Assembly: GCA_012517355.1 (NCBI GenBank)
Contig: JAAYVD010000152.1
Coordinates: 1 to 32,593 of the forward strand
Direction: 5' to 3'
Origin: Candidatus Rifleibacteriota bacterium
Lineage (GTDB): Bacteria > Muiribacteriota > Ozemobacteria > Ozemobacterales > Ozemobacteraceae
Length of the DNA: 32,593 nt
In this document: in pieces, positions 7,083 through 28,602 of the stretch
Layout: the number at the start of each line of letters is the position of its first letter
How positions within the stretch are numbered: position 1 is the first letter of the stretch
Position numbers and translations under genes: made by a program
The notes under the pieces: model-generated
Databases searched by the model: none
What the model saw: the letters and a program-made list of their open reading frames with translations, nothing else
What the model was told of the DNA's origin: nothing

Positions 7083-7556
7083 ATGACCTGGTCTTCTTGG
7101 CTCCTCTTCCTGGTCGTGGTCATCGGCGTCTTTCTCGTCACCAGGCGGAAACAGGCCGGGTCTTCCGGCACAACCGATGCAGAGGAACATCCGCCAACGG
7201 CAGGAAACGGGGAAAGGTCCGAAGATCCGCCGGGGGATGATCCTGGCGCGGCGGCCCTCCCGGAAAAAGGGCCGGCGGAGCTTCAGCAGGAAGTCAAACA
7301 GAAGAAAAGCCTGGTGCTGATCATCAGGCTCCAGGTGAAAAGCCTGTTGTCGAAATGCCCTGAAGGGCGTGACGAGGTCGAGTCGGCCCGGCAGGTGTTC
7401 AAGCAGGCTTGCGAGAGCTTTGACATGCCGAAGCCTCCGCCGGCCGCGGACAGGGAAGAACTGGGCAAGGCGGTCGCCCTGCTCGACGCCCACATCAGGG
7501 AGTTGGACCGGCTCATCCACACGTTGCTCCGGCATCTCGACGGGAGAAAGCCCTGA
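7083..7556 (+). CDS. Small membrane-anchored protein of unknown function
   Basis: 157 residues. One N-terminal transmembrane helix (about residues 4-20, LLFLVVVIGVFLV) is followed by basic residues (RRK), predicting a cytoplasmic body. A low-complexity acidic/Pro/Gly linker spans about 25-62, then two amphipathic helices rich in Lys, Leu and Glu, the second ending in RELDRLIHTLLRHL. I do not recognise the family. The ribosome site is weak (AAGGA about 12 bases upstream). It lies 106 bases upstream of the ankyrin gene on the same strand and may share its transcript. Confidence 0.6.
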   Translation: MTWSSWLLFLVVVIGVFLVTRRKQAGSSGTTDAEEHPPTAGNGERSEDPPGDDPGAAALPEKGPAELQQEVKQKKSLVLIIRLQVKSLLSKCPEGRDEVESARQVFKQACESFDMPKPPPAADREELGKAVALLDAHIRELDRLIHTLLRHLDGRKP

Positions 7557-7662
7557 ATGGTCCTTCCAACCGCTCGGGGCCCTGATCTGCGCGAGTGAGG
7601 CCGGTTGCCTTTTTTCCCCACCTTTGGGAGGATGGCGCACCAGAGACGAAGGAGGGTTGGCC

Positions 7663-9264
7663 ATGGGCGATGCTCCGCGCACTTCCCACAAGGTCTGCCG
7701 ACCGAGGTTTTCCCCAGGGAGGGGGATGTTCGAGGCGATCCGGGCCGGCGATACCGAGCGCGTCAGGACGCTCCTCGCGGAAGGGATCGACCCGAACGGG
7801 CGGACCCGGGACCGGTTCGCCGTCGATTTCTCCCTCTGGCACGATCTTCTGCTCCGGGCCTGGGACCACGACATGGGGATCGGCCTTTACGAGTATTCCC
7901 ACTGGGGAGGCTTTTCCCCGCTCATGGCGGCCGCTTCCCATCGCCGGGACCCCATTGTCGATCTGCTCCTCGAGGCCGGCGCCGACCTCGCGGCGACCGA
8001 TTCCATCGGGCTGGGCGCCCTGATGTACGCCCTCGTCGCCAAGCGCGAAGCGGTCGCCCTCCGGTTCCTCGAACGGGGCGCCCCCGTCGCGGTGGCCACC
8101 CATGTCTCGAAGACCGAAGAACCGTCCTCGCGGGGAAACGAAAACACCGTGACCGGGCTGACCCCCCTGCACGTCGCCAGCCTCACGGGTTCCGCGGAAG
8201 TGATCCGCCAGTTGCTGGAGCGGGGGGCGGATCCCTCCGCCACGGATTCCCTCGGCCGGACCCCGATGCAGATGGTCTTGCAGAACCCCTCGCCAGAGGC
8301 ACGCGCCGTCCTCGTCGGACGGACCTCCGGCGCCGCCCTGCCCACCCTCGCACCGGGCGAGGCCCTCCGCCTCCTCGACCAGTACCTGGCCGGGGATGGC
8401 ACCCCCGAAGAGCGCATCCGGAGCCTGATCCCGCGAGTTCTCGCCGACGATTACTACGATGCCTATCACCGGGAGACGAATCTCGGGGGCAAACGGATGG
8501 AATTGTTCGAATACGCCTGCGCCCGCAGGCTCGGACGGGCCTTCCGTTTCCTGGTCGAAACCGGCCAGGTGCCCCTTCCCTCCTCCCCCCGCGATGAGAC
8601 GCCCTTCCAGACGGCCTGCCGGGCCCTGGCCTGGGACATCGCGGACTTCCTGCTGGAGCGGGGTTTCCGCCCCGGCCCGGCCGACCTGATGGACGCCCTT
8701 CCCAACCCGCCCCTCGTCGGGATCCTCCTGGAGCGGGGGGTCCCGGTCACCCCCTGCGAGCGGTACGGCCAGCCCCAGGATCCCGTTCGGGCCCTGTTGG
8801 AAGTGAAAGGCTCCGATCACGGGGTCATCACCGCCAACCAGGTGGCGGTGATCGATCTGTTGGCCGACCACGGGGCGCGGCTCGACCTTCCCGACCAGCA
8901 CGGGAACACCCCGCTGATCATCGCGGTCAAGCAGTGCGCGGCGGCGGTGGTGCAGGCCCTCGCCCGACGGGGAGCCCCGCTCGACGGGGCCAATGCCCGC
9001 GGCCAGACCGCGTTGATGACCGCCGCCTTCTACGGGCACGATGCCTCGGCCAAGGCGCTCATCGAGGCCGGCGCCCCCCTGGACCAGCGCAACCAGGTCG
9101 GCCAGACCGCCCTGTGGATGGCGGTCAACTACTCGCGCCCGGAACAGGTCCGGCTCCTTCTGCAGGCCGGGGCCGACCGGACGATCCCCGATGCCGCCGG
9201 CATCACCCCTCTCGCCCTGGCCCGCCAGAGGAAGCTGGCCCAGATCCTTCCCCTGTTGGGCTGA
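7663..9264 (+). CDS. Ankyrin-repeat protein
   Basis: 533 residues with no signal peptide. Clear repeats include GFSPLMAAAS...LLLEAGAD, GLTPLHVASLTG...LLERGADPSA, HGNTPLIIAV, GQTALMTAAFYGHD...EAGAPLDQ and GQTALWMAVNYS...LLQAGADRTI, with degenerate repeats between (about residues 215-400). The array occupies nearly the whole chain, so it is likely a cytoplasmic protein-binding scaffold with unknown partner. The ATG at 7663 was chosen over upstream frame extension because AAGGAGG sits seven bases before it and the first ankyrin-like helix (MFEAIRAGDTERVRTLLAEG) starts near residue 22. Confidence 0.88.
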   Translation: MGDAPRTSHKVCRPRFSPGRGMFEAIRAGDTERVRTLLAEGIDPNGRTRDRFAVDFSLWHDLLLRAWDHDMGIGLYEYSHWGGFSPLMAAASHRRDPIVDLLLEAGADLAATDSIGLGALMYALVAKREAVALRFLERGAPVAVATHVSKTEEPSSRGNENTVTGLTPLHVASLTGSAEVIRQLLERGADPSATDSLGRTPMQMVLQNPSPEARAVLVGRTSGAALPTLAPGEALRLLDQYLAGDGTPEERIRSLIPRVLADDYYDAYHRETNLGGKRMELFEYACARRLGRAFRFLVETGQVPLPSSPRDETPFQTACRALAWDIADFLLERGFRPGPADLMDALPNPPLVGILLERGVPVTPCERYGQPQDPVRALLEVKGSDHGVITANQVAVIDLLADHGARLDLPDQHGNTPLIIAVKQCAAAVVQALARRGAPLDGANARGQTALMTAAFYGHDASAKALIEAGAPLDQRNQVGQTALWMAVNYSRPEQVRLLLQAGADRTIPDAAGITPLALARQRKLAQILPLLG

Positions 9265-12429: not shown

Positions 12430-12642
12430 CTATGTACCGGCGTTCTTCGCCCGGACCTTTTCGAGGAGTCCTCGTAAGGCGTCCATGTCGCTGGCCTCCA
12501 CGACCAGGCTGAATTCCTCTCCCGGCTCGTAGGCGGGGATGCCGTTGACCGTTGTTTGCTCCAAACCCTCATCCAGACAAGACAGGAGCGACTCCAGGGC
12601 CTCGCACTCGTGCCAGGACAACGTGATTCGTGGTGACCTCAT
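12430..12642 (-). CDS. Small hypothetical protein at the end of the Dnd-like operon
   Basis: 70 residues (RITLSWHECEALESLLSCL, then EEFSLVVEASDMDALRGLLE), an alpha/beta pattern without known motif. GGAGGAGG about eight bases before the ATG is a strong ribosome site. It lies 157 bases downstream of the 152-residue gene on the same strand, so it could be the last gene of the operon or independent. Confidence 0.55.
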   Translation of the reverse strand: MRSPRITLSWHECEALESLLSCLDEGLEQTTVNGIPAYEPGEEFSLVVEASDMDALRGLLEKVRAKNAGT

Positions 12643-12799
12643 TTCCGTCCTCCTCCCAGACTCGCTGGGGTTTGAATCTGCCTGGCCAGGCCCCCTGGCT
12701 CACCCCATGGTGAACCCATGGACCTTCGCCATGGGGATCCCGGCCGCCAGATCCTGCCGGGCCTCATCTCAACGAAAACTCGGGCAACCGGCATTCCCG

Positions 12800-13258
12800 T
12801 CAATGCAGCATTCCAGCTTCCCTCCCGGTCTCGAAAACCTCAGGGGGAATGATGGGCGAGACCGTCCGCAAGGGCCCCTCGACCAATCGTAGTTCCAGGA
12901 ACCTGGGCAGGGCCATGGTCCGGAACCTCTGCCAGATCTCAGGAACCTGCTCCTTCCCGACATGGAAGTCGAGTTGGGTGAGCCCGCCAAGGGCCTGTTG
13001 GACAGCCGGCAGGATGGGAAGATCCCCGAACAGATGGGGGCCGAAGGCCAGGCACGCATCCAGCAGGGCGGACGGGTCATTGGGGAAGGAGGGGATCACC
13101 GCCCGGATGTTCCCCAGGCGCTGGTCCCGGCCGTCCGGGTAGAGCGGCTCCAGCCACTGCCGGCCACCCGCGCCGGCCAACAGGATCAACGCGGGGGTCC
13201 CCAGGATCGGGGTCTCCAGGCCTTGGTACACCAGGAAGATCTTTTCCAACTCAGCCAT
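12800..13258 (-). CDS. Unknown protein of the DndD/DndE-HerA operon
   Basis: 152 residues, soluble, with alternating hydrophobic strands and helices (KIFLVYQGLETPILGTPALI, QLDFHVGKEQVPEIWQRF, FLELRLVEGPLRTVSPII). No signal peptide, membrane segment or catalytic motif visible. It follows the HerA-fusion gene by 57 bases on the same strand and so is likely cotranscribed and part of the same system. The ATG at 13258 is preferred; AAGGA lies about 13 bases upstream. A TTG at 13285 would add nine residues. Confidence 0.6.
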   Translation of the reverse strand: MAELEKIFLVYQGLETPILGTPALILLAGAGGRQWLEPLYPDGRDQRLGNIRAVIPSFPNDPSALLDACLAFGPHLFGDLPILPAVQQALGGLTQLDFHVGKEQVPEIWQRFRTMALPRFLELRLVEGPLRTVSPIIPPEVFETGREAGMLH

Positions 13259-13315
13259 GTCGTTCAGCCAATCCTTTCTGATCAATCATTCCATGGTCGC
13301 CGAGGAGCTCGCCGC

Positions 13316-14854
13316 TCACCTGCCCGGGCCCTTCCCGCCAGCTTCCTCTGCCAGTTGCCAGAACGGCAGGATCTTCAACCGGGAGTGGCGGTTGTTCTCT
13401 CCGGTCCGGAGGGTGGATACCACCTCATACTGCCTGAGGCCCACCACGACATCGGCCAACTGTTTGGCGGTCCGCTGGCTCTCGTGCAGGACGCCAGCCA
13501 GGCTCCGATTGGACGGGGGCTGCCCAAGGCGGAAGAGGAAGGCATTGCCGAGCAGTTCCTCGTATTCGGGCTGGCCCCGGAAATCTTCGGGGGACTGGGA
13601 CGCCAGCATGACGGCCACCCCCCGGGAGCGGCCTTCCCGCACCAGGGTCAACAGAGGCGGGCTTTTCCTCCGCAGGTAGTGGTGAGCCTCATCGATGGCC
13701 ACCACGCATCGGAGGGCCCGCCGCTCATCCTGGGCCTCGATCGGGGCGTCGGGCAGGCATGACACAGCCATCTGAAAGGCATGGAGGACCAGGAAGGCTA
13801 CCAGTTCGCGAACCGATTCCAGGCGTGAGAGGTCCAGGATGATCCGCTGCCCCAGGAGTTCCGAAGGCGAGAGGGTGGCCTTCTCGGCGAACAACTGGAG
13901 CGACGCCAGTTGCCGGACCAGGCCGGTGGCCGTGTCCTCCGACCGGCTGTTCTCTTCGTAGATTGCCTTCAGCCGGTCATGAAGGGCCGTGAAGGTCGGC
14001 TCGGCACCCGCATCCAACAAGTCGCGATAGGCATTGGCCAGGGCATTCTTCTGGACCTCGCCCAAACCCGGCCTGAACGACTTGAAGACCTCCGCGAAGG
14101 CCTCCGGTACCAACCGGGCGGGCACCCGTTCCGGAATGGCCAGGGGGTTCAGCGGGACGGGACATTCCTCCGGGCGGATGATCCGGGCCCCCGTGCGCTT
14201 GACGAACCTCTCGTCCTTGCCGAGGTCGCCCTTGTAATCGAGGGCCAGGAAGCCGGTTTCCGAACCCTGCACAGCGATCTGAGACAGTAGGGATTGCAGG
14301 AACTGGGTCTTGCCCATCCCCGGAACCCCCATGATGGCGGTGTTTCCATTGGTCTGATCACCGCCTTCCCGATTGAAGGCCCAGACGATGGGCCGCCCCT
14401 GGCCATCCGTCCCCACCCAGATGTCGATCGGAGTTACGGTAGCGCTTGCGAGAAGTCTCGCACTCTTCCCGAAACCCTCGATGGGGTCGAGGCGGCGCAG
14501 GGTCATCTCCCAGTCCTGGTGGCAGGCCTCGAAGGCGGCGGCCAGGCGTTCCATCCCGGCATTGATGGCCTTTCGGACGAACTCCATCAGGCCGCTTCCC
14601 TGCATGACCTGGTTGTTGAGCACGGAGATGACGCTCCGAAAGACTTCCCCATGGGTTCCGAAGTGGTCGATGTGCTCGTATTCGAAGGCCCGGCCGCCCT
14701 TGTCATCCGGCCTGGCCTGGAGGGTGCGAGGGTCCTCCTGGAGACCAAGGGCCAGGGCGATCCGCTCCAGCGCTTGGAAATCACAGCCGGACTTGTTGCG
14801 GAGGGTCTCCACCTGGGCTCGGCAGACCTTGCTGGTCAGTGATCGTTCCAACAT
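13316..14854 (-). CDS. DndE-like domain fused to HerA/DUF87 ATPase
   Basis: 512 residues. Residues 1-110 resemble DndE: a short basic helix with LTSKVCRAQVETLRNKSG, LERIALALGL, then FGTHGEVFRSVI and a FVRKAINAGMERL helix. From about 140 onward it is a HerA/FtsK-type motor: Walker A GVPGMGKT (176-183), an ALDYKGD strand (204-210), Walker B VVAIDEAHH (384-392) and sensor LASQSPEDF (417-425). HerA motors translocate on DNA, often with a nuclease partner; none is visible in this protein. The gene starts two bases after the dndD-like stop with GGAGG inside that gene, so the two are coupled. The HerA call is firm; the DndE part is by pattern. Confidence 0.75.
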   Translation of the reverse strand: MLERSLTSKVCRAQVETLRNKSGCDFQALERIALALGLQEDPRTLQARPDDKGGRAFEYEHIDHFGTHGEVFRSVISVLNNQVMQGSGLMEFVRKAINAGMERLAAAFEACHQDWEMTLRRLDPIEGFGKSARLLASATVTPIDIWVGTDGQGRPIVWAFNREGGDQTNGNTAIMGVPGMGKTQFLQSLLSQIAVQGSETGFLALDYKGDLGKDERFVKRTGARIIRPEECPVPLNPLAIPERVPARLVPEAFAEVFKSFRPGLGEVQKNALANAYRDLLDAGAEPTFTALHDRLKAIYEENSRSEDTATGLVRQLASLQLFAEKATLSPSELLGQRIILDLSRLESVRELVAFLVLHAFQMAVSCLPDAPIEAQDERRALRCVVAIDEAHHYLRRKSPPLLTLVREGRSRGVAVMLASQSPEDFRGQPEYEELLGNAFLFRLGQPPSNRSLAGVLHESQRTAKQLADVVVGLRQYEVVSTLRTGENNRHSRLKILPFWQLAEEAGGKGPGR

Positions 14855-14856
14855 CT

Positions 14857-16839
14857 TCAGGCCTCCTTCCTCATTTCCTGGAGGATGGTCTCCTCCTTGT
14901 CTTCCGTCGGCCGCTGCAGTTCGTACACTTGGTTGACATACGGGTCGAGGGCTCTCTCCCCGGAAGGGGAAAGCTCCCCGGTCTTGATCAGCAGGAGGAC
15001 CTGTTCCCCGAGTTGGGGAAGGAACTTCCCCAGGATGTTCTGGGTGTGCTCGTCATCCATAGGAGTCAGGGGGGCTTCGATGACCAGCGGGACCTTCCAG
15101 GTTGACGCTTCCTGCAATGCCCGCAGGACGCTGAAGGCCAGCACCGATTTTTCCCCGGTCGACAGCCGCTGCTTGGCCACCAGCTCGCCTCGGACGTTTT
15201 CCAGCTTGATGTCGAAGGTCTTCCGGTCCAACAGGATGCGACGATAGTAGCCGGGCTTGTTGGTGATAGCCAGGAGGGCACTGGTGGCGGCCTCCTCGAT
15301 GGCCTGCACCTTTCCGAGGCGTTGTTCCTGGGCCAGTTCGTCCACGCACTGGCGGATGCGCCCGATGAACTCGATCTTCCGGGTGGCCACCTCCGCCTCT
15401 TCGTTCTCCTGGATCGCCTGGTCGATCTCCTCCTCCTTGGCCTTCACCTGTGCCCGGAGGCGCTGGATCTCGGCCCGCTCCCGCTCAATCAGGGTAACGC
15501 GGTCGCTCCGGGAAGCCCCGAGGCCCTCGATGTCGGCCAGGACCTCGTTGATCCGACGCCCGAGGTTCTGGTCCTGGGTCAGGGTGGGGATCTCCCGCAG
15601 GATGCGGTTCCGTTCGTCCCGCAGGGCATCGCGTTCATCGAGGAGCTGGGCGAGGGCGGGCCCCTGCCCGGCCTTCTGGATGACCTCCCGCATCTTCCTG
15701 ATCTCCCGGGATGACAGGCACGGCGGGGTCGGTTCCTCCCCCTCAAAGACTTCGATCGCCAGGATCTTGAGCAGCCGCTGGAACAACACGTCCCGCCCCT
15801 GATCATCGAGAGGTCCCGACAAGGGGGGCCCTCCCCTGGCCAGGTCTTCGGCGATGGCCTGGGCAATCTCCCGGCGGCGCATGGCATCTTCCCGCCCTTC
15901 GAAGATGGAAGCCGCGTTCTCGGCCAGGTCGATGGCCCGCGGCAACAGGGGCCCAAGAAGGCGCAGGGGCAGATGCAGGTCGACGTGCTCCTGGAACAGG
16001 TCCCCGATCTTCTTCAACTCGAGCTCCACCTCGGCTTTGCGGCGCTCGAGCCCTTGCCGACGCTTGTCGAGTTCGGGATTGAAGTTCTTGAGGAGGGCGT
16101 CCTTGCGGGTCACCGCCTCGGCCAGTTCCCGGTCGATCTGGTCCCGCTCCTTGCGCAGGTTCGACAACCGGCTTTCGGCCGAGCGCAAGGCCCGTTCCAG
16201 GTCCGCGCGTTCCTGTTCCAGTTGGGCAGGTGGGGGTGAGTTGCTCTGGATCTGCCGGCGGATTTCCTTCAGACAAATCTCGAGGTCGTCCTGGAGCCGC
16301 CGGAACAGGTGCAAGCCGAGGATCTCCTCGAGGGCATCGACGACGGCGGCCCCTTCGTGGTCCTCGATCAGGCGTTCGAGGGTCTGGCTGTACTCCAGGT
16401 TGAACATGAAGTATTCGAGGAGTTCGAGGGGAAGGTGGTTCCCGAGATACTCCCGGATGCGATCCTCGTTCCCTTCCTGGGAACCGTCGGGACGGGTAAG
16501 GACATTGCTTCGCAGGAGGCGAGGCGGGTTTCCCTCGGGGGCGACGGTGAGGATCCGCTCGACGGCGCAGACCTCCCCGGGCCCAACCTGAAGTTCCACG
16601 CAGATCCGGGTCGGGCGGCCAAAGGCGGAGCCCCGGGAAAGGCTGATCAGGGACCGCGCCTCATCCTCATTGGCGGGAAACCCGTTGAAAGCGAGGTTGA
16701 AGGCATGCAGGAGGTTGCTCTTGCCGAACCCGTTCTTCCCCTTGATCAGGGTGATGGGCTGCCCGGGCCGGAAGGGCAGGAGCAGGTCGAGGTTGGGGAA
16801 CTGCCGGTAGTTTTCCAGGACCAGGCGACGGATGTTCAT
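14857..16839 (-). CDS. dndD: DndD-like SMC/Rad50-type ATPase
   Basis: 660 residues, the normal length of DndD. The N-terminal head has Walker A GKNGFGKS (34-41); long coiled coils span about 190-520; the C-terminal head has the ABC signature LSTGEK (559-564) and D-loop-like APLTPMDDEH (589-598). The Walker B aspartate position reads VIEAP rather than the family-typical VIDTP, a Glu in place of Asp. No CxxC zinc hook is present in the coil. DndD is the ATPase of DNA phosphorothioation systems, where it works with DndC and DndE. Here dndA, dndB and dndC are missing. The ATG overlaps the preceding small gene by four bases. Confidence 0.78.
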   Translation of the reverse strand: MNIRRLVLENYRQFPNLDLLLPFRPGQPITLIKGKNGFGKSNLLHAFNLAFNGFPANEDEARSLISLSRGSAFGRPTRICVELQVGPGEVCAVERILTVAPEGNPPRLLRSNVLTRPDGSQEGNEDRIREYLGNHLPLELLEYFMFNLEYSQTLERLIEDHEGAAVVDALEEILGLHLFRRLQDDLEICLKEIRRQIQSNSPPPAQLEQERADLERALRSAESRLSNLRKERDQIDRELAEAVTRKDALLKNFNPELDKRRQGLERRKAEVELELKKIGDLFQEHVDLHLPLRLLGPLLPRAIDLAENAASIFEGREDAMRRREIAQAIAEDLARGGPPLSGPLDDQGRDVLFQRLLKILAIEVFEGEEPTPPCLSSREIRKMREVIQKAGQGPALAQLLDERDALRDERNRILREIPTLTQDQNLGRRINEVLADIEGLGASRSDRVTLIERERAEIQRLRAQVKAKEEEIDQAIQENEEAEVATRKIEFIGRIRQCVDELAQEQRLGKVQAIEEAATSALLAITNKPGYYRRILLDRKTFDIKLENVRGELVAKQRLSTGEKSVLAFSVLRALQEASTWKVPLVIEAPLTPMDDEHTQNILGKFLPQLGEQVLLLIKTGELSPSGERALDPYVNQVYELQRPTEDKEETILQEMRKEA

Positions 16840-17033
16840 CGGGTCACCTCCTTGGCCATGGCCTCCTCGAGCAGGCGGCGGATCTCCTCGTGGAGACCGC
16901 GGCGCTTCTGATAAGAGCGGCCGAACCGGGCCTCGAGGTCCAGCAGCCTTTCCAGAAGAGTGAAAGGCACCCGATGGCGGGCACAGATTTCCCGCGTTTT
17001 CTCCGTGTCTTCAAGCAGTCTCGGTTCTGGCAT
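16836..17033 (-). CDS. Small protein of the Dnd-like operon
   Basis: 65 residues, a charged helical protein (TREICARHRVPFTLLERLLD, then FGRSYQKRRGLHEEIRRLLE). Similar short proteins occur beside DndD homologues and are annotated as DNA modification system-associated small proteins; my assignment rests on that resemblance and the position. First gene of the minus-strand operon: its start is about 55 bases downstream of the -24/-12 promoter, GGAGGG precedes the ATG, and its stop overlaps the dndD-like start (ATGA). Confidence 0.65.
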   Translation of the reverse strand: MPEPRLLEDTEKTREICARHRVPFTLLERLLDLEARFGRSYQKRRGLHEEIRRLLEEAMAKEVTR

Positions 17034-17087
17034 GCTTCCCTCCTTTGGGGCCCTTCGGCTCTTTGACCGTCGACCGGGTCCTCATTT

Positions 17088-17102
17088 GCAACCCTGATGC
17101 CA
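17088..17102 (-). promoter_or_regulatory. Sigma-54 (-24/-12) promoter of the Dnd-like operon
   Basis: On the minus strand the sequence is TGGCATCAGGGTTGC, matching the consensus TGGCAC-N5-TTGC with the invariant GG and GC correctly spaced. Predicted transcription start is near 17076, leaving about 43 bases before the first ATG at 17033. The neighbouring gene encodes a sigma-54 activator with an intact GAFTGA loop. Confidence 0.8.
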
Positions 17103-17140
17103 ACTCCTTGGAATCGGGCAAAGTCCCACGGAACCACCGT

Positions 17141-17162
17141 CAACGCATATCCCCCAACGCAT
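17141..17162. repeat. Direct repeat CAACGCAT x2
   Basis: CAACGCAT at 17141-17148 and 17155-17162, 14 bases apart, lie about 65-85 bases upstream of the predicted sigma-54 start. They may be part of the activator binding region. Confidence 0.4.
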
Positions 17163-17166
17163 CAGG

Positions 17167-17180
17167 CGGTTGCCCAACCG
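17167..17180. promoter_or_regulatory. Palindrome CGGTTG-CC-CAACCG, candidate activator site
   Basis: A perfect 6-2-6 inverted repeat about 90-105 bases upstream of the sigma-54 start, the usual range for an enhancer-binding activator site. It overlaps the -35 element of the activator's own promoter, so binding could both activate the operon and repress the regulator gene. Confidence 0.55.
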
Positions 17181-17198
17181 TAAATTTCCGTGTATCAT
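17170..17198 (+). promoter_or_regulatory. Sigma-70-type promoter of the activator gene
   Basis: TTGCCC (17170-17175) and TATCAT (17193-17198) are separated by 17 bases. The predicted start is near 17205, about 20 bases before the ATG at 17226, with AAGGGAAAAGG as ribosome site. Confidence 0.55.
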
Positions 17199-17225
17199 GA
17201 GAAAATTACTTCCTAAGGGAAAAGG

Positions 17226-18809
17226 ATGGCAAAACTGGAAACTTCGCGGCGGGTTCTATTCAGTTGGCTTGGGGAGGCGGAACTCCTGAGCAAGGACCTC
17301 GAGCAGTCGGGGATCGGGCGGGCGGTGCGGGCGAGGAAGTTCCACGAGGTGCATCTCCTGGCCAACGTGGACCCGGACCGCGAGGTGGTCAAGAACGGGG
17401 TGAGCCTGGGGAAGGTCTACTCGCGGCCGTTCTTCCAGAAGTACAAGGAGCGCCTGGAGGCCCTGAAGGCGGCCAAGGTTTTCATCCATGAGTGCACGCT
17501 CACCAGCCCGACCCACTTCTCCGAGATCTTCCCGATCGCCGCGGAGCAAGTCGGGAAAGTGCTTGCCGCCCGGCCGGGCCCCGTGGAACTGACCTACCAC
17601 CTCAGCTCGGGAACCGCCCCCATGATTGCCGTCTGGGTATTGATCGCCCAGACCCGTTACAAGGGGGAGCTCATCGAGACCCGCTTCCCCGAAAACGTCC
17701 GGCGGAAGAAGGAGAAGACCCTGGCGGTGGAGACCGTCGACATGCCGTTCGAGATCTCCGCCGACTTCCTGCCCGAGCTGATCCGGAAGACCGACCAGGC
17801 AATAGCCTCCCGCCCCCTGGAGACCCCGACCTTCGACGAGATCAAGCACCGCAGCCCGAAGACCCGGGAGGCCGTCCGGCTGGCCCACCTCGCCGCCCAG
17901 CGCGACGCCACCGTCCTGCTCCTCGGCGAGTCGGGGGTCGGGAAGGAACTGTTCGCCCGGGCCATTCAGGCCGCCAGTCCCCGACGCGACAAGGAAATGG
18001 TGGTCTTCAACTGCGGCGCCCTGCCCGAGAACCTGGTCGAGTCTGAACTGTTCGGGTTCCGGAAGGGGGCCTTCACGGGGGCGACCGCTGACAAGGTCGG
18101 CCTGTTCAGGGTCGCCGACGGCGGCACCATCTTCCTCGACGAGGTCGGCGAGCTGACCCTGCCGGCACAGACGCGCCTCCTGCGCGTGCTGCAGCAGGGG
18201 GAGATCCAGCCCGTGGGGGCCACGCGGATGGAACGGGTCAACGTCCGGATCATCGCTGCCACCAACCGCAACCTGCTCGACGAGGTCCGCAACGGGCGCT
18301 TCCGGGAAGATTTGTTCTTCCGCCTGGCCGTGATGGTCATCTCCATTCCCCCGCTCCGCGAGCGCGAAGAGGACGTCATCCCCATCACCGAGCACGTCTT
18401 CGCCAAGCTGGCCACCAAGTTCGGGATGACAAAGAAACACCTTGCCCCAGATGCGAAGAACGCCCTGCGAGCCCATCCCTGGCCCGGCAACGTCCGGGAA
18501 CTGGAGAATGTTCTGACCCGTGCCATGCTTTGGTCCGAACACGACCGGATCAGCGGCGAGGATCTTCGCCGGGCCATCCTCGTCTTCCCCGAGCAGGCCC
18601 GCAGTTCCGTTCTGGGTCGCCCCATCGATGGATCCTGGCGCCTGGAAGGTCTTCTGGACGAGGTCTCCCGCCACTACCTGGAGAGGGTCATGGAGCTGAC
18701 CCGAGGCAACAAGACGGAAGCCGCCTGCCTCCTGGGGTTCAACAACTACCAGACCCTGTCCAACTGGCTCCGCCGGCTGGGCCTGGAAGGGCCTCCCGAA
18801 GTTCCCTGA
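17226..18809 (+). CDS. RtcR-like CARF sigma-54 transcriptional activator
   Basis: 527 residues in three parts. Residues 1-185 form a CARF-like sensor (HLLANVD near 43-49; [20 protein letters not shown] near 124-143), as in RtcR, which senses nucleotide or RNA-end signals. Residues about 205-440 are the AAA+ sigma-54 activator: Walker A GESGVGKE (234-241), GAFTGA (281-286), Walker [10 protein letters not shown] (301-309). The C-terminal Fis-type helix-turn-helix is [18 protein letters not shown]. No rtcA or rtcB is nearby; instead a sigma-54 promoter drives the divergent Dnd-like operon, its most likely target. Domain calls are firm; the activating ligand is unknown. Confidence 0.9.
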
Positions 18810-18981: not shown

Positions 18982-19064
18982 TTGTAATGCCAGCCCGGTT
19001 CGGGGCGAAAGGGGTATTTTCCGCCGCCAATTCCTCGACAACCAGGAAAAGGAGACGTTGGACC

Positions 19065-19322
19065 ATGGCTTCCATCAAAACCAGTCTTGTGAAGATCGGC
19101 AATTCTCAGGGCATCCGGATTCCGAAGGCCGTCATCGACCAGGTTTCCCTGCGGGGGGACATCGAGATCGAGGTCGGGGAGGACTGCCTGATCGTCAAGG
19201 CGGCCCGCACCCCGCGGGCAGGGTGGGAAAACGCCTTCCGCAAGGCCGCTCCCAGGCCAGATCAGGACAGGGATTTTGACGTGACCATGGCCGACTTCGA
19301 CGGAGACTGGCGATGGAAGTGA
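19065..19322 (+). CDS. mazE: MazE/AbrB-type antitoxin
   Basis: 85 residues. The SpoVT/AbrB swapped-hairpin DNA-binding fold is evident in SLVKIGNSQGIRIPKAVI and the strand text IEIEVGEDCLIVKA (about 7-50), followed by an acidic, disordered C-terminus (DQDRDFDVTMADFDGDW) that would wrap the toxin. The ATG at 19065 has AAGGAGA about nine bases upstream. Its stop overlaps the toxin start by 10 bases. Such antitoxins usually autorepress the pair. Confidence 0.88.
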   Translation: MASIKTSLVKIGNSQGIRIPKAVIDQVSLRGDIEIEVGEDCLIVKAARTPRAGWENAFRKAAPRPDQDRDFDVTMADFDGDWRWK

Positions 19323-19633
19323 TCCGTTTTCACGTCTACCTCATCAACCTGGACCCTACCGTAGGGTCCGAGATACGGAAAACAAGGCCGGGCCTCGTTG
19401 TTTCTCCAGACGAGATGAACCGGTACCTCCACACGGCCATCATCGCCCCCATGACAACGGCCGAGAAGGACTATCCCACCCGAGTCGGCATCCAGTTCTC
19501 GGGCAGAAGGGGCCAGATCGCCCTTGACCAGATCCGCACCGTCGACAAGACGCGGATCGCCAAGCACCTGGGCAAGATCGACATCCGGACCGGCTTCAAG
19601 GTTCTGGAAACCCTTCGGGAGATGTTCGAATAG
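19313..19633 (+). CDS. mazF: MazF/PemK-type endoribonuclease toxin
   Basis: 106 residues, normal length. Family motifs include HVYLINLDPTVGSEIRKTRP near the N-terminus (the catalytic Arg region), GLVVSPDEMN, IIAPMTT and GQIALDQIRTVDKTRI. MazF toxins cleave mRNA or other RNA at short sequences. The start overlaps mazE by 10 bases, so translation is coupled. All expected core motifs are present, so the toxin looks intact. Confidence 0.92.
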   Translation: MEVIRFHVYLINLDPTVGSEIRKTRPGLVVSPDEMNRYLHTAIIAPMTTAEKDYPTRVGIQFSGRRGQIALDQIRTVDKTRIAKHLGKIDIRTGFKVLETLREMFE

Positions 19634-22982: not shown

Positions 22983-23846
22983 TCAATTGGGCTTGGGCTT
23001 GGCCGGTCGCTTGTGCTCTCGTGGTTCGCCACCACGGGTTGGGCCACCTAAGGTCTCGAAGAACAACTTTTCATCGATAAGCGCGACATCTTTGCGGATA
23101 GCGGCATTGAGGAGCTCGTTGGCCAGGTTGGTCAAACTGCGAAAGTTGCCACCGGCGTGCTCTGCCAGGGCGCCGATGACGGCCTTCGTCATCAGCCCCT
23201 GATTGCCTGCGGCCTCCAGACAGTGACCGACAAACATGGTGAGCTGCTCCTTGGAAACAGCTTCCAGAGGCATGCGGAACCGGATCCGGCTTTCCAGAGG
23301 AAGAAGTTCTTCCGACCGCAGGCGGTTCAGAAGGCGGTCGTCCCCACACAGGACAACGGTCAGGATGGAGGAGGAATCGAACTGGGTGCTGGTCAGGAGG
23401 CGAAGCTCCGACAGCACGGCGTGATTGGCCAGTTGGGCCTCGTCATACAGGAGGATGGGCCGGGCCATGGCGGTTTCGATATGGGCCTGCCACCGTTCCC
23501 GCAAGGCCTTGAAGCCGCCATACCGGTTCGCCGGCGAGAGAGGCACCCCGAACAGATGGCCCAGCTCGCGGTAGAAATCGCCGACGACGCTCTGGGGCCT
23601 GGACAGCACACCGACCAGGACGTCGGACAGGTTGGTGAGGTGGTGGGCCAGCTGGCGCAGGAGAATGGATTTGCCGGTTCCCGGGTCCCCGGTGAGGAGG
23701 ATGAAGCCCCCCTCCTGCAGTTGTTGTTCGACCCGCCAGCAAAAGAGGTCGGTCTTGGGGGTCCTCATCAGGGCTTCCGGCGGAACGTCCGGCGAGAAGG
23801 GATTCCACTTGATCCCGAACTGGGTGAGGTCGCGCTTTCGCATCAT
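22983..23846 (-). CDS. ExeA/TniB-like AAA+ transposition ATPase
   Basis: 287 residues. Starts with FGIKWNPFSPDVPPEAL, typical of ExeA-like proteins, then Walker A GDPGTGKS (53-60), Walker B ILLYDEAQ (131-138), a sensor-1 strand TVVLCGDDRL and an arginine-finger region RLRSEELLPLESRIRFRM. In MuB/TnsC/TniB-type systems such ATPases choose target DNA and stimulate the transposase. The ATG (second of two tandem ATGs is possible) overlaps the transposase stop by four bases, indicating translational coupling. Confidence 0.88.
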   Translation of the reverse strand: MMRKRDLTQFGIKWNPFSPDVPPEALMRTPKTDLFCWRVEQQLQEGGFILLTGDPGTGKSILLRQLAHHLTNLSDVLVGVLSRPQSVVGDFYRELGHLFGVPLSPANRYGGFKALRERWQAHIETAMARPILLYDEAQLANHAVLSELRLLTSTQFDSSSILTVVLCGDDRLLNRLRSEELLPLESRIRFRMPLEAVSKEQLTMFVGHCLEAAGNQGLMTKAVIGALAEHAGGNFRSLTNLANELLNAAIRKDVALIDEKLFFETLGGPTRGGEPREHKRPAKPKPN

Positions 23847-25288
23847 TGCTCCTTTTCCTCTTTGGGAAGATAGCTCATTGGCTGGCCAGTGGCGGCGGAT
23901 TGCTCGAGGAGACGCCGCAGCAGGGGGGCCATTCCGGGAGAGGGTTTCTGACTGACCGGGGAATTCCCCGCCATCGGGCGTCGCCGGCCATCGGCGTTCT
24001 TTTCCAGGTCCCGTGGGTAGATCCGGCCGATGATCTCGCCGGTGGGGCGGCTGACGAGATGGACGAGGGACAGATCCCAGGTGGCATACCGGATGGCAAT
24101 CCGCGCCAGATGGCGGTAAGCCACCGGGATCTCGTAACGCCTGCCATCGATCGAGATGGTGCCATCGCTCCGGCGCTGGCTCCGGGTCGTCTCGATCGTG
24201 AAGGCCTGGCGCAGAGCCTCCGGTGGGGGGGCGGGACGGCCGACGCCCGGGCCATCGAGAAAGCGCTGGAGGGGGGTCTGGCCCGTTTCCGAATGGGTCT
24301 TGCGGTGATATTCCATCTCCACCCAGGCCAGGGTCGCGTCGTTCAGCTGCTTGAGGGTCAGTTGGTCCTCGCCCTCGAGCATCGCCATCAAGCGACCCTC
24401 GACCTGGCCCCAGAAGCACTCCTGCTTCCCGTTCTGCTGGGGCGAATAGGGAAGGGTCGTCTCGTGCAGGATGCCGATCCGCTGCAGCCCCTGGGTCGTT
24501 TCCGCCGCCCCCATGGGCGAGCCGTTGTCGGTCATCAGCGCCCGGGGCAGTCCCCGCTTGAGGAAGGCCTGAACGAGAGCATGCACGAAGTTTTCCGCCG
24601 TCTCCCGCCAGTACCATTGGGCATGGCAGACCAAGCGGGAGCGATCGTCCAGAATGGCGACCAGAACGGGCTTCACCCACTCTCCCTGCTCGTTGAGCAG
24701 TTTGCGGGAGCAATGATGAAAATCGGAATGGACCAGGCCCAGGACATGGGTCGCTTCGAACGACCGGGTTTCCCTGGCCTCGAGCCGGGAACGGGCGGCC
24801 TGGATGCCCGCCCGCTCGCCGTTCCGCGGGGTGGTGACTTTGACGAGCCCACCGGCATTTCGGAACCTCCGAACGGTGGCGTAGGAAGGGACCTTCCCCA
24901 AAGCCCGGTCCTGGGCGATCACGAGGAGATTGTCGTAGTGGAGTTGATGGGACCAGCCAGAATGGGTGGCATGCAGTTCTTTGATGGCCTGACGGAGAGA
25001 TTCCGGGAGTGAGGGGCGCTGGCCCCGGTCCCGCCGAGGTTTCCGGGTCAGAGCGCTGACCGGGCTGCCGCGGGTCCGCTTGGCCTGGTAATACCAGTCC
25101 TCGATCGTGGCGAAGGCAAACCGGGTTGGCTCCCCGGTGATCGGGTGGGTCCACTCGCGAGCGGCGAGTTCCTTCAAGGCTTCCTGGAGATGGCCGGAGG
25201 GAGGCGGCGAGGCAAGGAGATGGCCCACGACCTTGAGCCGGAAGATTCCCCAGGCCTCGTGGGGACGTGGATGGTCGGGATGGATCAT
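23843..25288 (-). CDS. DDE transposase (Mu/TniA-like)
   Basis: 481 residues. An N-terminal helical DNA-binding region is followed by the RNase H-fold core with D189 (VHSDFHH), D254 (LMTDNGSPM) and E290 (NGKQECFWGQVE), a DD35E spacing. The C-terminal region (about 350-420, ISIDGRRYEIPVAYRHLA and YPRDLEK) matches the Mu transposase C-terminal barrel. It cuts and joins transposon ends. The ATG at 25288 has AAGGAT eight bases upstream. The gene appears complete with all catalytic residues. Confidence 0.92.
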   Translation of the reverse strand: MIHPDHPRPHEAWGIFRLKVVGHLLASPPPSGHLQEALKELAAREWTHPITGEPTRFAFATIEDWYYQAKRTRGSPVSALTRKPRRDRGQRPSLPESLRQAIKELHATHSGWSHQLHYDNLLVIAQDRALGKVPSYATVRRFRNAGGLVKVTTPRNGERAGIQAARSRLEARETRSFEATHVLGLVHSDFHHCSRKLLNEQGEWVKPVLVAILDDRSRLVCHAQWYWRETAENFVHALVQAFLKRGLPRALMTDNGSPMGAAETTQGLQRIGILHETTLPYSPQQNGKQECFWGQVEGRLMAMLEGEDQLTLKQLNDATLAWVEMEYHRKTHSETGQTPLQRFLDGPGVGRPAPPPEALRQAFTIETTRSQRRSDGTISIDGRRYEIPVAYRHLARIAIRYATWDLSLVHLVSRPTGEIIGRIYPRDLEKNADGRRRPMAGNSPVSQKPSPGMAPLLRRLLEQSAATGQPMSYLPKEEKEQ

Positions 25289-25413
25289 GTGGTCTTATCC
25301 TTTTTGGTGATTTCTGGCGGTGGGTGCCACCGCCTCGATGCAAGATAGACCCGCATGAATTCAGGGGCGAGACGCATCCTCTGCGCGAAATGGTCAGCCC
25401 GACAACAGAGCGC

Positions 25414-25980
25414 TCAGCCGCTCCCACCCCCACCGGTCACCGGAAGAAGGTGCCGAAGCACCCCTAATGCTGTGTCCGTAAGGGTTTTCCGCCGAAACCC
25501 GTGAAGCAGGCGAAGAGGTATTGGCACGGCGGGCGCCCCGTCGAGACGAATCCCGGCGGAACATCCCAGCCAAACCTTGCTCTGGGAGAACACCTCTGCC
25601 CACCACGTTCGCCACCGGCCCAAGGTGCGGTCAGCAGCACCGCAGATTTCACCAAGCCGTTTCCGTCGACGAGGGGATGCATCGCCCACGAGCGCCGACA
25701 CCAGTATCAGGACGACGCCGACATACACCTTCCGCCCGAGGAACCGGAAGGAGGGTGGTGTGCGGCGCCGACGGCACAGATAGCAGCAGAAGCTGAACCG
25801 GCGGTCGATCCCTTCGTCAGGCTCAAGGCCCCACCCGCGGGGTTTTCGGGGATAGTGGGCCTGATGAAGAGGCCCATGGCAAATAGGGCATCCACCCTTC
25901 CGGGCTTCTTCGGCGAGATCCTCATCGAGGGAGAAAAGAAACTGGAAGAACTTCCAGTCGGACAGAAATCGCTGTAACAT
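25414..25980 (-). CDS. Zinc-ribbon accessory protein of the transposon
   Basis: 188 residues. The N-terminal part reads FFQFLFSLDEDLAEEARKGG, then CPICHGPLHQAHYPRKPRG and FSFCCYLCRRRRTPPSFRFL, giving two paired-cysteine sites (CPIC and CCYLC) as in a small zinc-binding domain. The C-terminal part is basic and helical (TLGRWRTWWAEVF), likely nucleic-acid binding. First gene of the transposon operon. The ATG at 25980 is preferred because AAGGAGG sits nine bases upstream; an ATG at 25989 is too close to it. I know of similar proteins beside ExeA-type transposases but no proven role. Confidence 0.75.
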   Translation of the reverse strand: MLQRFLSDWKFFQFLFSLDEDLAEEARKGGCPICHGPLHQAHYPRKPRGWGLEPDEGIDRRFSFCCYLCRRRRTPPSFRFLGRKVYVGVVLILVSALVGDASPRRRKRLGEICGAADRTLGRWRTWWAEVFSQSKVWLGCSAGIRLDGAPAVPIPLRLLHGFRRKTLTDTALGVLRHLLPVTGGGGSG

Positions 25981-28006: not shown

Positions 28007-28602
28007 CTTCGCCTCCCGGGAAATCGGACGAGCATTGCCTTACCATCCTACCACAGGCGACCGGCATCCCCCGTTCACACCCTGCCGGAAATCGTGGGCA
28101 TGGGCGGGGGACACCATCAACCGATGGCGCGGGAGAGCGCCGGAACTGAAGCTGGCAGGATGCAGGAGAGGAACCGGAGCCGGAGAGAAACCGGAACAGG
28201 AAGAGGGCAGTGGAAGGACAGGAAAAGCCGAAGGGGAGAAATGGGAGAAGTGGCGAAAGGTGATGAGAGCTGGCGGAACGCAGGAGAGAACGGGAGCAGG
28301 AAGAAGACAGGGAAGGGAAGGAAAAGGAGAAGGGGAGAAACGGGGGAAGGGGCGAAAGGTGATGAGAGCTGGCGGAACGCAGGAGAGAACGGGAGCAGGA
28401 AGAAGACAGGGAAGGGAAGGAACAAGGAGAAGGAGAGAAACGGGGGAAGGGGCGAAAGGTGATGAGAGCTGGCGGAACGCAGGAGAGAACGGAAGCAGGA
28501 AGAAGACGGGGGAAGGGCAGGAAATGGGGAAGCAGGGAGGGGAAGGGCCGCCAGGGGCGCCGTGGTAGAATGACGGCAGCCTGATACCCGCTGGAGGTCG
28601 TG
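28007..28602. other. Long intergenic stretch with tandem repeats
   Basis: About 600 bases with no credible gene. Most is a purine-rich repeat tract (listed separately). A TAGAAT box near 28563 could be a -10 for the thioredoxin-like gene, without a clear -35. Confidence 0.6.
28150..28535 (+). repeat. Purine-rich tandem repeat, about 100-bp unit
   Basis: The block starting GCGAAAGGTGATGAGAGCTG recurs at 28253, 28352 and 28452, so the unit is 99-100 bases. Three copies are nearly identical and a degenerate one precedes them from about 28150. The plus strand is almost all A and G apart from a short CTGGCGGAACGC segment. There is no spacer diversity, so it is not a CRISPR array. Confidence 0.85.

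Follow-up and report, generated by a model that had tools for sequence, protein, structure and literature searches.

A divergent CARF/sigma-54 activator and a DndD-HerA module without DndC in a Candidatus Rifleibacteriota genome

A tightly coupled operon lies opposite a CARF/sigma-54 activator

The window (the whole stretch of 32,593 nucleotides analysed here, contig JAAYVD010000152.1 of the Candidatus Rifleibacteriota assembly GCA_012517355.1) carries on its minus strand a probable operon that encodes, in this order, a small protein of 65 aa, Sp-DndD (16836..17033), a DndD-type ABC/SMC-like ATPase of 660 aa (14857..16839), a fusion of 512 aa, DndE·HerA (13316..14854), with a DndE part at the N-terminus and a HerA/FtsK motor at the C-terminus, and two orphan small proteins, one of 152 aa downstream of the fusion (12800..13258) and one of 70 aa encoded by the final gene (12430..12642). 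Divergently, on the plus strand, lies an RtcR_PspF2-type activator of 527 aa (17226..18809) made of a CARF sensor, a sigma-54 AAA+ domain and a Fis-type HTH. The coupling of the core is tight: the frames of Sp-DndD and DndD overlap by 4 bp, and a gap of 2 nt separates DndD from DndE·HerA. DndA and DndB are not among the operon genes, and Pfam and NCBIfam scans of the divergent operon gave no RtcA or RtcB.

The Sp-DndD operon is preceded on its own strand by the -24/-12 element TGGCATCAGGGTTGCA (17087..17102), which matches the consensus at 10 of the 12 fixed positions; three sites this good occur across the whole window, and 144 of 20,000 shuffles of the intergenic stretch (same strand) reached its score. 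It is thus by its motif that the element qualifies as a sigma-54 promoter beside the operon. The palindrome CGGTTGCCCAACCG (17167..17180), 64 nt upstream of the -24 element, is the sole intergenic palindrome with an arm of at least 6 and may be an upstream activating site bound by the regulator; it is absent from the other loci compared. An earlier note on this DNA had given these coordinates, strands and gene order, the coupling and the promoter, all of which were recovered.

The regulator belongs to a subfamily that often adjoins defence genes

Residues 9-521 of the regulator, the CARF domain among them, match the PADLOC model RtcR_PspF2 (PDLC01995) with 528.7 bits, and Pfam recognises Sigma54_activat (218.1 bits) and HTH_8 (23.3 bits) in the same protein. 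Against NF038308, the equivalog of the RNA-repair RtcR, the regulator scores 305.6 bits for a cut-off of 650. What had been described as an RtcR-like CARF activator is therefore a CARF-AAA-HTH sigma-54 activator indeed, but not the RNA-repair RtcR. We rejected the idea that an RtcR without RNA repair is odd, since it concerns the wrong subfamily, and the missing RNA-repair partners, to which the earlier note pointed, are not anomalous because RtcR_PspF2 copies often adjoin defence genes. Twelve other full-length RtcR_PspF2 loci, where the most telling genes were picked by eye within ~5 kb, showed recognised defence genes in seven cases, candidates or TA pairs in three, nothing recognised in one and a contig end in one. 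None of ten ordinary sigma-54 activators adjoined a defence gene, a control that is lighter than the test because one adjacent gene was taken for each, against a choice by eye within that distance. A vWA-like gene named by eye (L080) matched no Pfam family, and neither the HEPN gene of L078 nor a PIN gene (L075) matched any PADLOC family. The second RtcR_PspF2 of the window's own genome (L073) had no defence gene recognisable by eye. In plasmids, type I R-M genes lie downstream of three of five regulator copies, and two of five have a vWA/PP2C/kinase/AAA set.

The regulator and the DndD-HerA module do not travel together. Within the stretches compared, the regulator was not found at other DndE·HerA loci, either by phmmer (L004, L007, L023-L025) or by eye (L039, L040), and in none of the five other DndE·HerA loci scanned was Sp preceded by a correctly oriented sigma-54 site. 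Sites matching at least 10 of the 12 positions are present in the window and in four of ten other regulator loci scanned, the remaining six being without one.

Directly downstream of the regulator are MazE (PF04014, 27.6 bits) and MazF (PF02452, 99.3 bits), and TA-like pairs adjoin two other regulator copies: an HEPN protein (83.2 bits) with a nucleotidyltransferase at L078, and a HicA/HicB-like pair, both below the Pfam cut-off, at L074. Such neighbours are what one might expect of an abortive, indirect system, in which the motor complex would act as sensor or scaffold and the effector would be MazEF, the 152-aa protein or nucleases encoded elsewhere. However, MazEF is outside the divergent operon and its start falls 180-260 bp behind the regulator, according to which start codon is used; no match for the 152-aa protein was found in genomes with other DndE·HerA loci or in plasmids, and we consider this explanation distinctly unlikely.

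The 152-aa protein matches no family in Pfam, NCBIfam or PADLOC and has no credible relative among 380 other genomes, plasmids and viral contigs; the search of the 380 genomes returned one stop-containing fragment at E 0.008. It was rejected as an essential part for want of relatives in these collections, and it is probably accessory. The 70-aa protein matches no family in NCBIfam and PADLOC and gave one Pfam match under the cut-off (Rnk_N, E 0.098). Both have a codon-position GC resembling that of real genes, so that the small unknown proteins previously proposed (one or two) look like genuine products, but as far as tested they lie outside the conserved core.

The core retains DndD, a DndC tail and an intact HerA motor

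The ATPase matches TIGR03185 across its full length with 206.6 bits, below the NCBI equivalog cut-off of 245.85, and its best PADLOC models are DndD (208.2 bits) and PbeC (192.0 bits). The earlier assignment of this SMC protein to DndD therefore stands, the DndD models scoring best, though under the NCBI cut-off. In the alignment, the Walker B Asp is replaced by Glu in both Ozemobacter proteins (window and sister species), and the ATPase may be weak because of this replacement.

Sp-DndD scores 27.5 bits with PF20306 (Pfam cut-off 27.2) and 30.3 bits with a profile built from four DndC tails, where the top of 500 shuffles reached 9.2. Judged by these profiles, it and the C-terminal tail of DndC are homologous. 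This tail has been modelled docking on DndD, with pull-down support, in a study that also models DndD as Rad50-like (PMC12193691, in the parts used here), which suggests that the plug survives without the enzyme. PF20306 matches occur in 11 of 381 genomes, as stand-alone small proteins in five (G000, G016, G072, G078, G220) and as tails of DndC-sized frames, recognised as DndC, in three (G077, G354, G039); the remaining three rows (G056, G124, G134) are unexplained, and G124 and G134 gave no match with the queries used. In G148, a fusion of Sp to DndD is suggested by position only, with 4.4 bits for the DndC-tail profile, inside the shuffled range.

The HerA domain of the fusion matches DUF87 (25.4 bits, Pfam cut-off 23.2) and DndH C-terminal models of PADLOC with up to 106.4 bits. 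Its DndE part is uncalled by Pfam; PF08870 is above the cut-off in all three relatives' fusions scanned, and residues 3-129 of the window fusion score 30.9 bits with a profile of N-termini from six fusions outside the genus. These profiles confirm the DndE-HerA fusion of the earlier note, an arrangement already described in PMC10853773. Walker A, Walker B and the Gln sensor of HerA are intact in the window, and the alignment shows motor residues invariant in 8/8 fusions. Two structure models were unusable (pLDDT 40.9 and 37.2).

Might the locus then be a decaying Dnd remnant retained by chance? The missing DndC, the lost Walker B Asp and the DndD score under the equivalog cut-off are what decay could leave behind. 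Yet the frames are intact and tightly coupled, the HerA motor residues are unchanged over several phyla, the sigma-54 promoter is present and the same minimal set is found in unrelated genomes, all of which make this reading very improbable.

The DndC-free core recurs across phyla

The DndE·HerA fusion is present in 7 of 381 genomes; the search gave eight, and G052 was dropped, being a HerA fragment at a contig start. Phylum-wide searches around G072, G148 and G220 covered four, four and two genomes, respectively. Fourteen plasmid records match the window fusion, and one of the four examined is a DndE·HerA fusion; the same DndE·HerA plasmid was the one of five plasmid records to cover 80% of the L024 fusion. 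Viral contigs had no relatives. A contig scan with two patterns found the sister species only, because both patterns are narrow.

DndC is missing at six of the eight inspected DndE·HerA loci, and the coupled core without it recurs in at least four phyla. In the window's own draft genome TIGR03183 had no match, and the DndC model found no full-length protein in any of the six draft genomes with DndC-free loci, this one included. Modification genes elsewhere in the genome, or present at every homologous locus, would have spoken against the earlier note, and for DndC these counts show neither. To explain the DndC-free rows, the DndD tree (weak support, 37/66) needs a single change and the HerA tree needs two, so that these loci may have had one origin or more.

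The fusion nevertheless adjoins DndC in the other two loci (G188 and the megaplasmid of Methylorubrum extorquens AM1), and in the sections of PMC10853773 that concern it, the fusion is assigned to a subset of PT systems, with other modifications suggested for systems lacking DndC. It is therefore conceivable that Sp, DndD and DndE·HerA still mark DNA with an enzyme encoded elsewhere, either a missed DndC or another one, HerA serving as a scanning motor. Against this stand the draft genome without a DndC match, the five other DndC-free-locus genomes without a full-length one, and a separate Sp protein that stands in for the DndC tail; we see it as quite unlikely.

HerA motors are known to cooperate with SMC-like ATPases in repair. 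Together with the Rad50-like model of DndD and the stress-responsive behaviour described for the E. coli RtcR (in the part of PMC9650030 concerned), this lends some weight to an inducible DNA-repair or chromosome-handling machine, of Rad50/FtsK-like type, that would rescue stressed host DNA and have no anti-invader role. A machine of this kind is at odds with the patchy occurrence of the fusion, with the sister species, whose module sits inside a type III CRISPR locus, with the type I R-M-like genes that adjoin one homologue (L023, by eye) and with a regulator family often next to defence genes. We judge it unlikely.

Comparison with known systems

The closest published arrangement is the 'clade-3 HerA' (Rakesh, Aravind and Krishnan 2024, PMC10853773), likewise a DndE-HerA/FtsK fusion beside a DndD-related ATPase; DndD-DndE pairs that have no PT genes are counted there as well. 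As presented there, the context is PT modification, whereas here a CARF/sigma-54 switch is present and DndC was not found in the draft genome; neither RtcR nor CARF occurs in that paper. With DndABCDE the module shares DndD, DndE (as the N-terminal part of the fusion) and the DndC tail (as Sp-DndD), but no DndC was found, its DndE is fused to HerA and its CARF/sigma-54 regulator is divergent. PbeABCD and the CxC ABC-ATPase systems are alike in combining a DndD-like ATPase, DndE and a small protein, with a proposed role in DNA interference (PMC10853773, passages on these systems); in contrast, the 660-aa ATPase of the window has no CxC motif and PADLOC gave no PbeA match among the six proteins. 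The HerA motor is related to the C-terminus of DndH, but the locus is without DndF, DndG and a full-length DndH. CARF/sigma-54 regulators of RtcR-like type that serve defence loci (PMC4012209), including those of CoCoNuT superoperons (PMC11090510), share the regulator architecture and adjoin defence genes; the passages on them link no DndD or DndE-HerA module. Our literature search found nothing combining RtcR, CARF and DndD, or DndD, HerA and sigma-54.

New here are the DndC-free state of most inspected loci and of their draft genomes, the kinship of Sp-DndD with the DndC tail, the identity of the regulator as RtcR_PspF2, and the placement of the sister's module within type III CRISPR. Here the DNA-handling motors of Dnd stand apart from DNA marking, so that the role of DndD-DndE in genomes without DndC, many of which have been reported, becomes testable. 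The small protein also gains a concrete rationale, as a docking tail set free, and a CARF/sigma-54 alarm is tied to a DNA motor that has no recognised nuclease. Since alarm and motor are linked in a ~6.4 kb cassette, one construct would serve to study both the ligand of the regulator family and the way the motor acts.

A possible motor-based defence under an inducible switch

The module has no sulfur-transfer enzyme, recognised nuclease or toxic effector. We give an even chance to its being a stand-alone, modification-free, nuclease-less DndD-HerA module for DNA interference that was captured by a defence-type CARF/sigma-54 switch; the modification-free, Dnd-type motors under inducible control proposed by the earlier note are supported. 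From its genes and their neighbours, the function would be defence, and, given the lack of a marking enzyme, invading DNA is probably fought by mechanical means. A broader reading, in which Sp, DndD and DndE·HerA form a motors-only anti-invader system in several phyla that neither marks nor cuts and is plugged into varied alarm circuits (CARF/sigma-54 in one Ozemobacter, type III CRISPR in its sister, none recognised elsewhere), is more tentative, and we hold it to be somewhat less probable than its opposite.

We propose that in the undisturbed cell the CARF domain would hold RtcR_PspF2 off, and that, when the cell is infected or its RNA is damaged, a nucleic-acid signal would free the regulator to fire the sigma-54 promoter upstream of Sp-DndD. 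The three core proteins might then assemble into a single complex, in which a DndD dimer would clamp or loop DNA, Sp-DndD would occupy the DndD pocket meant for the DndC tail, the DndE part would contact DNA and the DndD coiled coil, and HerA, tethered via DndE, would make a ring pumping the captured DNA. Invading DNA would thereby be held, stripped or pulled until its replication, transfer or packaging fails; alternatively, it could be passed to nucleases encoded elsewhere. The signal might be 2',3'-cyclic phosphate RNA ends, or a cyclic oligoadenylate made by the type III-A CRISPR system of the cell. The E. coli RtcR is described as not activated by oligoadenylates in vitro in the relevant part of PMC9650030. 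The window's own genome encodes a type III-A Cas10 with GGDD.

Gene organisation of the locus

Five genes lie on the minus strand in the order Sp-DndD (16836-17033), DndD (14857-16839), DndE·HerA (13316-14854), a 152-aa protein (12800-13258) and a 70-aa protein (12430-12642), divergent from an activator of the RtcR_PspF2 type on the plus strand (17226-18809). The frames of Sp-DndD and DndD share 4 bp, a gap of 2 nt separates DndD from DndE·HerA, and codon-position GC is gene-like for all six genes of the locus, in agreement with the gene content, order and coupling described in an earlier note. A MazE/MazF pair (18987-19322 and 19313-19633, plus; PF04014 27.6 bits, PF02452 99.3 bits) is encoded directly 3' of the regulator. 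The window is a single contig (G000:C52); the draft genome to which it belongs measures 7.1 Mb and is 96% complete. It also encodes an ankyrin-repeat protein (7369-9264, plus; Ank_2, 130.2 bits) and a large open frame whose C-terminal part is an AAA_22 domain (22983-25433, minus; 65.3 bits), and has a repeat in three copies with 99-100 bp spacing (28189-28516).

The motor proteins

The SMC ATPase was rightly called DndD-like. It matches TIGR03185 over its full length with 206.6 bits, below the equivalog cut-off of 245.85, and among PADLOC models it scores highest with DndD (208.2) and PbeC (192.0). Inspection of the window DndD sequence revealed no CxC motif, the feature by which PMC10853773 distinguishes the PbeC/CxC clade. 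Across 11 aligned DndD proteins the Walker A lysine is retained, as is the serine-glycine of the signature motif; the Walker B aspartate is replaced by glutamate in the window and in a sister species of the same genus (below, the sister), both Ozemobacter, and is present in the nine others.

HerA/FtsK domains are known to be hexameric. In the window protein, the HerA part is matched by DUF87 and by the C-terminal portion of DndH models, and G176, G181, K182, D388, E389, R406 and Q420 are invariant in all eight DndE·HerA fusions. Its DndE part received no call in the Pfam scan, and its N-terminus scores 30.9 bits against a profile built from the corresponding regions of six fusions from outside the genus, which upholds its reading as a DndE-HerA fusion. 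PF08870 (DndE) is above cut-off in the fusions of all three relatives scanned (L023, L040 and L007).

Recurrence of the module without DndC

The fusion profile matched 8 of 381 genomes. Dropping G052, whose match is a HerA fragment located where a contig starts, and adding the Methylorubrum extorquens AM1 megaplasmid gave eight loci. DndC is present at two of them, G188 and Methylorubrum (read from translation in the latter), and absent from the other six, as searched by phmmer (sister, G220, G072, G078), by eye (G148) and by family scans (window). Applied to whole genomes, the DndC model found no full-length DndC in the same six (drafts, 93-99% complete; four contigs for G148), four of which had no match at all, while G072 and G220 matched only with the Sp gene, at model positions 392-446. 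Since the phylum sets around G072, G148 and G220 are disjoint from each other and from the window's phylum, the module is spread over at least four phyla. Additional proteins of 207-212 aa are encoded at the G220 (one) and G072 (two) loci; of two tested, one resembles Mrr_N at one end, with 25.1 bits against a cut-off of 29.5, and the second has no family match.

A stand-alone DndC tail

Sp-DndD matches PF20306 just above threshold (27.5 bits, cut-off 27.2) and also the last ~50 residues of DndC models. With a profile built solely from four DndC tails, for which the best of 500 shuffled sequences reached 9.2 bits, the stand-alone Sp proteins scored 53.8 (L023), 46.7 (L024), 30.3 (window), 28.8 (L025), 17.7 (sister) and 13.0 bits (Methylorubrum). 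The DndD of G148 (L039, 5624-7828) has an N-terminal extension where Sp would be; its location suggests an Sp fusion, which its score of 4.4 bits does not support. In E. coli B7A, AlphaFold3 predicts, with pull-down support, that DndC residues 433-482 and the last helix bind DndD, and the same study predicts that the second coiled coil of DndD binds DndE (PMC12193691). Because Sp is homologous to this predicted DndD-binding tail, the module retains a plug matched to DndD while lacking the enzyme itself, and we infer that this plug still binds DndD. Such a freed DndC plug is new as far as we searched the literature.

Regulation and the regulator family

The -24/-12 motif reported upstream of the module was confirmed: it fits 10 of 12 positions, equalled by 144 of 20000 shuffles, and 53 nt separate it from the start codon of Sp-DndD. 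A possible activator site is the palindrome that lies 64 nt further upstream, counted from the -24 element; it has no comparative support. A motif scan upstream of Sp revealed no site of at least 9/12 in the sister, L023, L025 and L039, and L024 has a site but on the wrong strand. As the scanned relatives have no correct-strand site before Sp, sigma-54 control of the module, judged from sequence, appears confined to the window's copy among these loci.

The PADLOC RtcR_PspF2 model matched 326 of 381 genomes at 1e-90, with up to four candidates scored per genome, mostly ordinary sigma-54 activators. Among the matches listed, at least 13 start at model position 1-3 and hence include the CARF domain. 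One of 13 such full-length matches is the window's, and we inspected the other 12. Recognised defence genes occur at seven of these: Cas10 (L076, L077, L083), PglZ and BrxL (L075), a type I restriction subunit (L079), CARF4-PDDEXK (L080, 873.4 bits), and an Mrr_cat REase with a HEC-05/PDC-M55C-like protein (L081). Three more have candidates or toxin-antitoxin (TA) pairs: HEPN and nucleotidyltransferase (L078), an NsnB-like ATPase with a TOTE-domain helicase (L082), and a HicA/HicB-like pair, both below Pfam cut-off (L074). L072 is at a contig end, and L073, the second copy in the window's genome (G000:C142, 8399-10291, 593.3 bits), has no defence neighbours recognisable by eye. Loci of partial, ordinary activators gave no PADLOC match at 1e-5 (0/10), a control lighter than the test, with one adjacent gene each against genes chosen by eye. 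Sites of 10 or 11/12 lie beside the regulator in four of the ten other loci scanned for sigma-54 sites (L075, L079, L080, L081), sites of 9/12 in three (L076, L077, L083), and none of at least 9/12 in L074, L078 and L082. Those of L079 and L080 are directed toward the operon behind the regulator, and at L075 the BREX genes lie on the side from which the site points away.

Plasmids served as an independent set, in which the window regulator's CARF part matched five records. In three, type I R-M genes are annotated on the same strand downstream of the regulator; in the Azotobacter plasmid these start 3.5 kb behind it, with unannotated DNA between. Two have a same-strand vWA/PP2C/kinase/AAA set downstream, which we take to be a candidate defence set. 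The window regulator belongs to a defence-linked family. This association was already known, since RtcR-like proteins outside Rtc were reported often to adjoin R-M systems (PMC4012209, 2014) and RtcR homologues to adjoin CoCoNuTs (PMC11090510, 2024). Taken singly, the DndE-HerA fusion, the pairs that lack DndC and the defence link of the regulator family have all been published; in the literature searched, we found neither the association of an RtcR-like protein with a DndD-HerA module nor the combination of fusion, DndC-less module and regulator.

A possible mechanism

The earlier note proposed an inducible DNA-processing or defence system that senses damage or infection and uses Dnd-type motors without marking DNA. 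This is reasonable and now better supported, with defence itself still an inference. DndD has been modelled as a Rad50-like dimer binding DNA and DndE (PMC12193691), HerA/FtsK domains are described as DNA pumps (PMC10853773), and the CARF domain of RtcR represses the AAA+ domain until a signal arrives (PMC9650030). In the likeliest reading, infection would throw this switch and activate a motor complex that might clamp DNA via DndD and DndE while HerA pulls it through; the invader's replication, transfer or packaging would be blocked, or its DNA fed to nucleases encoded elsewhere. With no marking step to spare the host, specificity must come from induction timing, DNA topology or DndE contact, and its source is the weakest point of this mechanism.

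Signals and CRISPR neighbours

MazEF would generate RNA ends with 2',3'-cyclic phosphate, and TA-like pairs also adjoin the regulator at L074 and L078. Cyclic oligoadenylate failed to activate RtcR of E. coli in vitro, and the signal proposed in its place was RNA ends with 2',3'-cyclic phosphate (PMC9650030). We judge such ends somewhat the likelier signal for the window regulator. In the sister (L004, 1104-2602 and 3074-8603), the three module genes (Sp-DndD-DndE·HerA) lie between a 21-repeat CRISPR array, with Cas1 and Cas2 on its far side, and a Cas10 gene (237.4 bits) on the module's strand; two CARF proteins, CARF7-RelE (309.7 bits) and a Csx1-like one (58.2 bits), follow downstream. One module with two different CARF-linked ties inside one genus is new as far as we searched the literature. 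The window's genome encodes a type III-A Cas10 with GGDD (395.6 bits) on another contig, where the CRISPR genes (L090, G000:C65, 324-7537, minus) include Csm3 and, by eye, Csm5- and Cas6-like genes.
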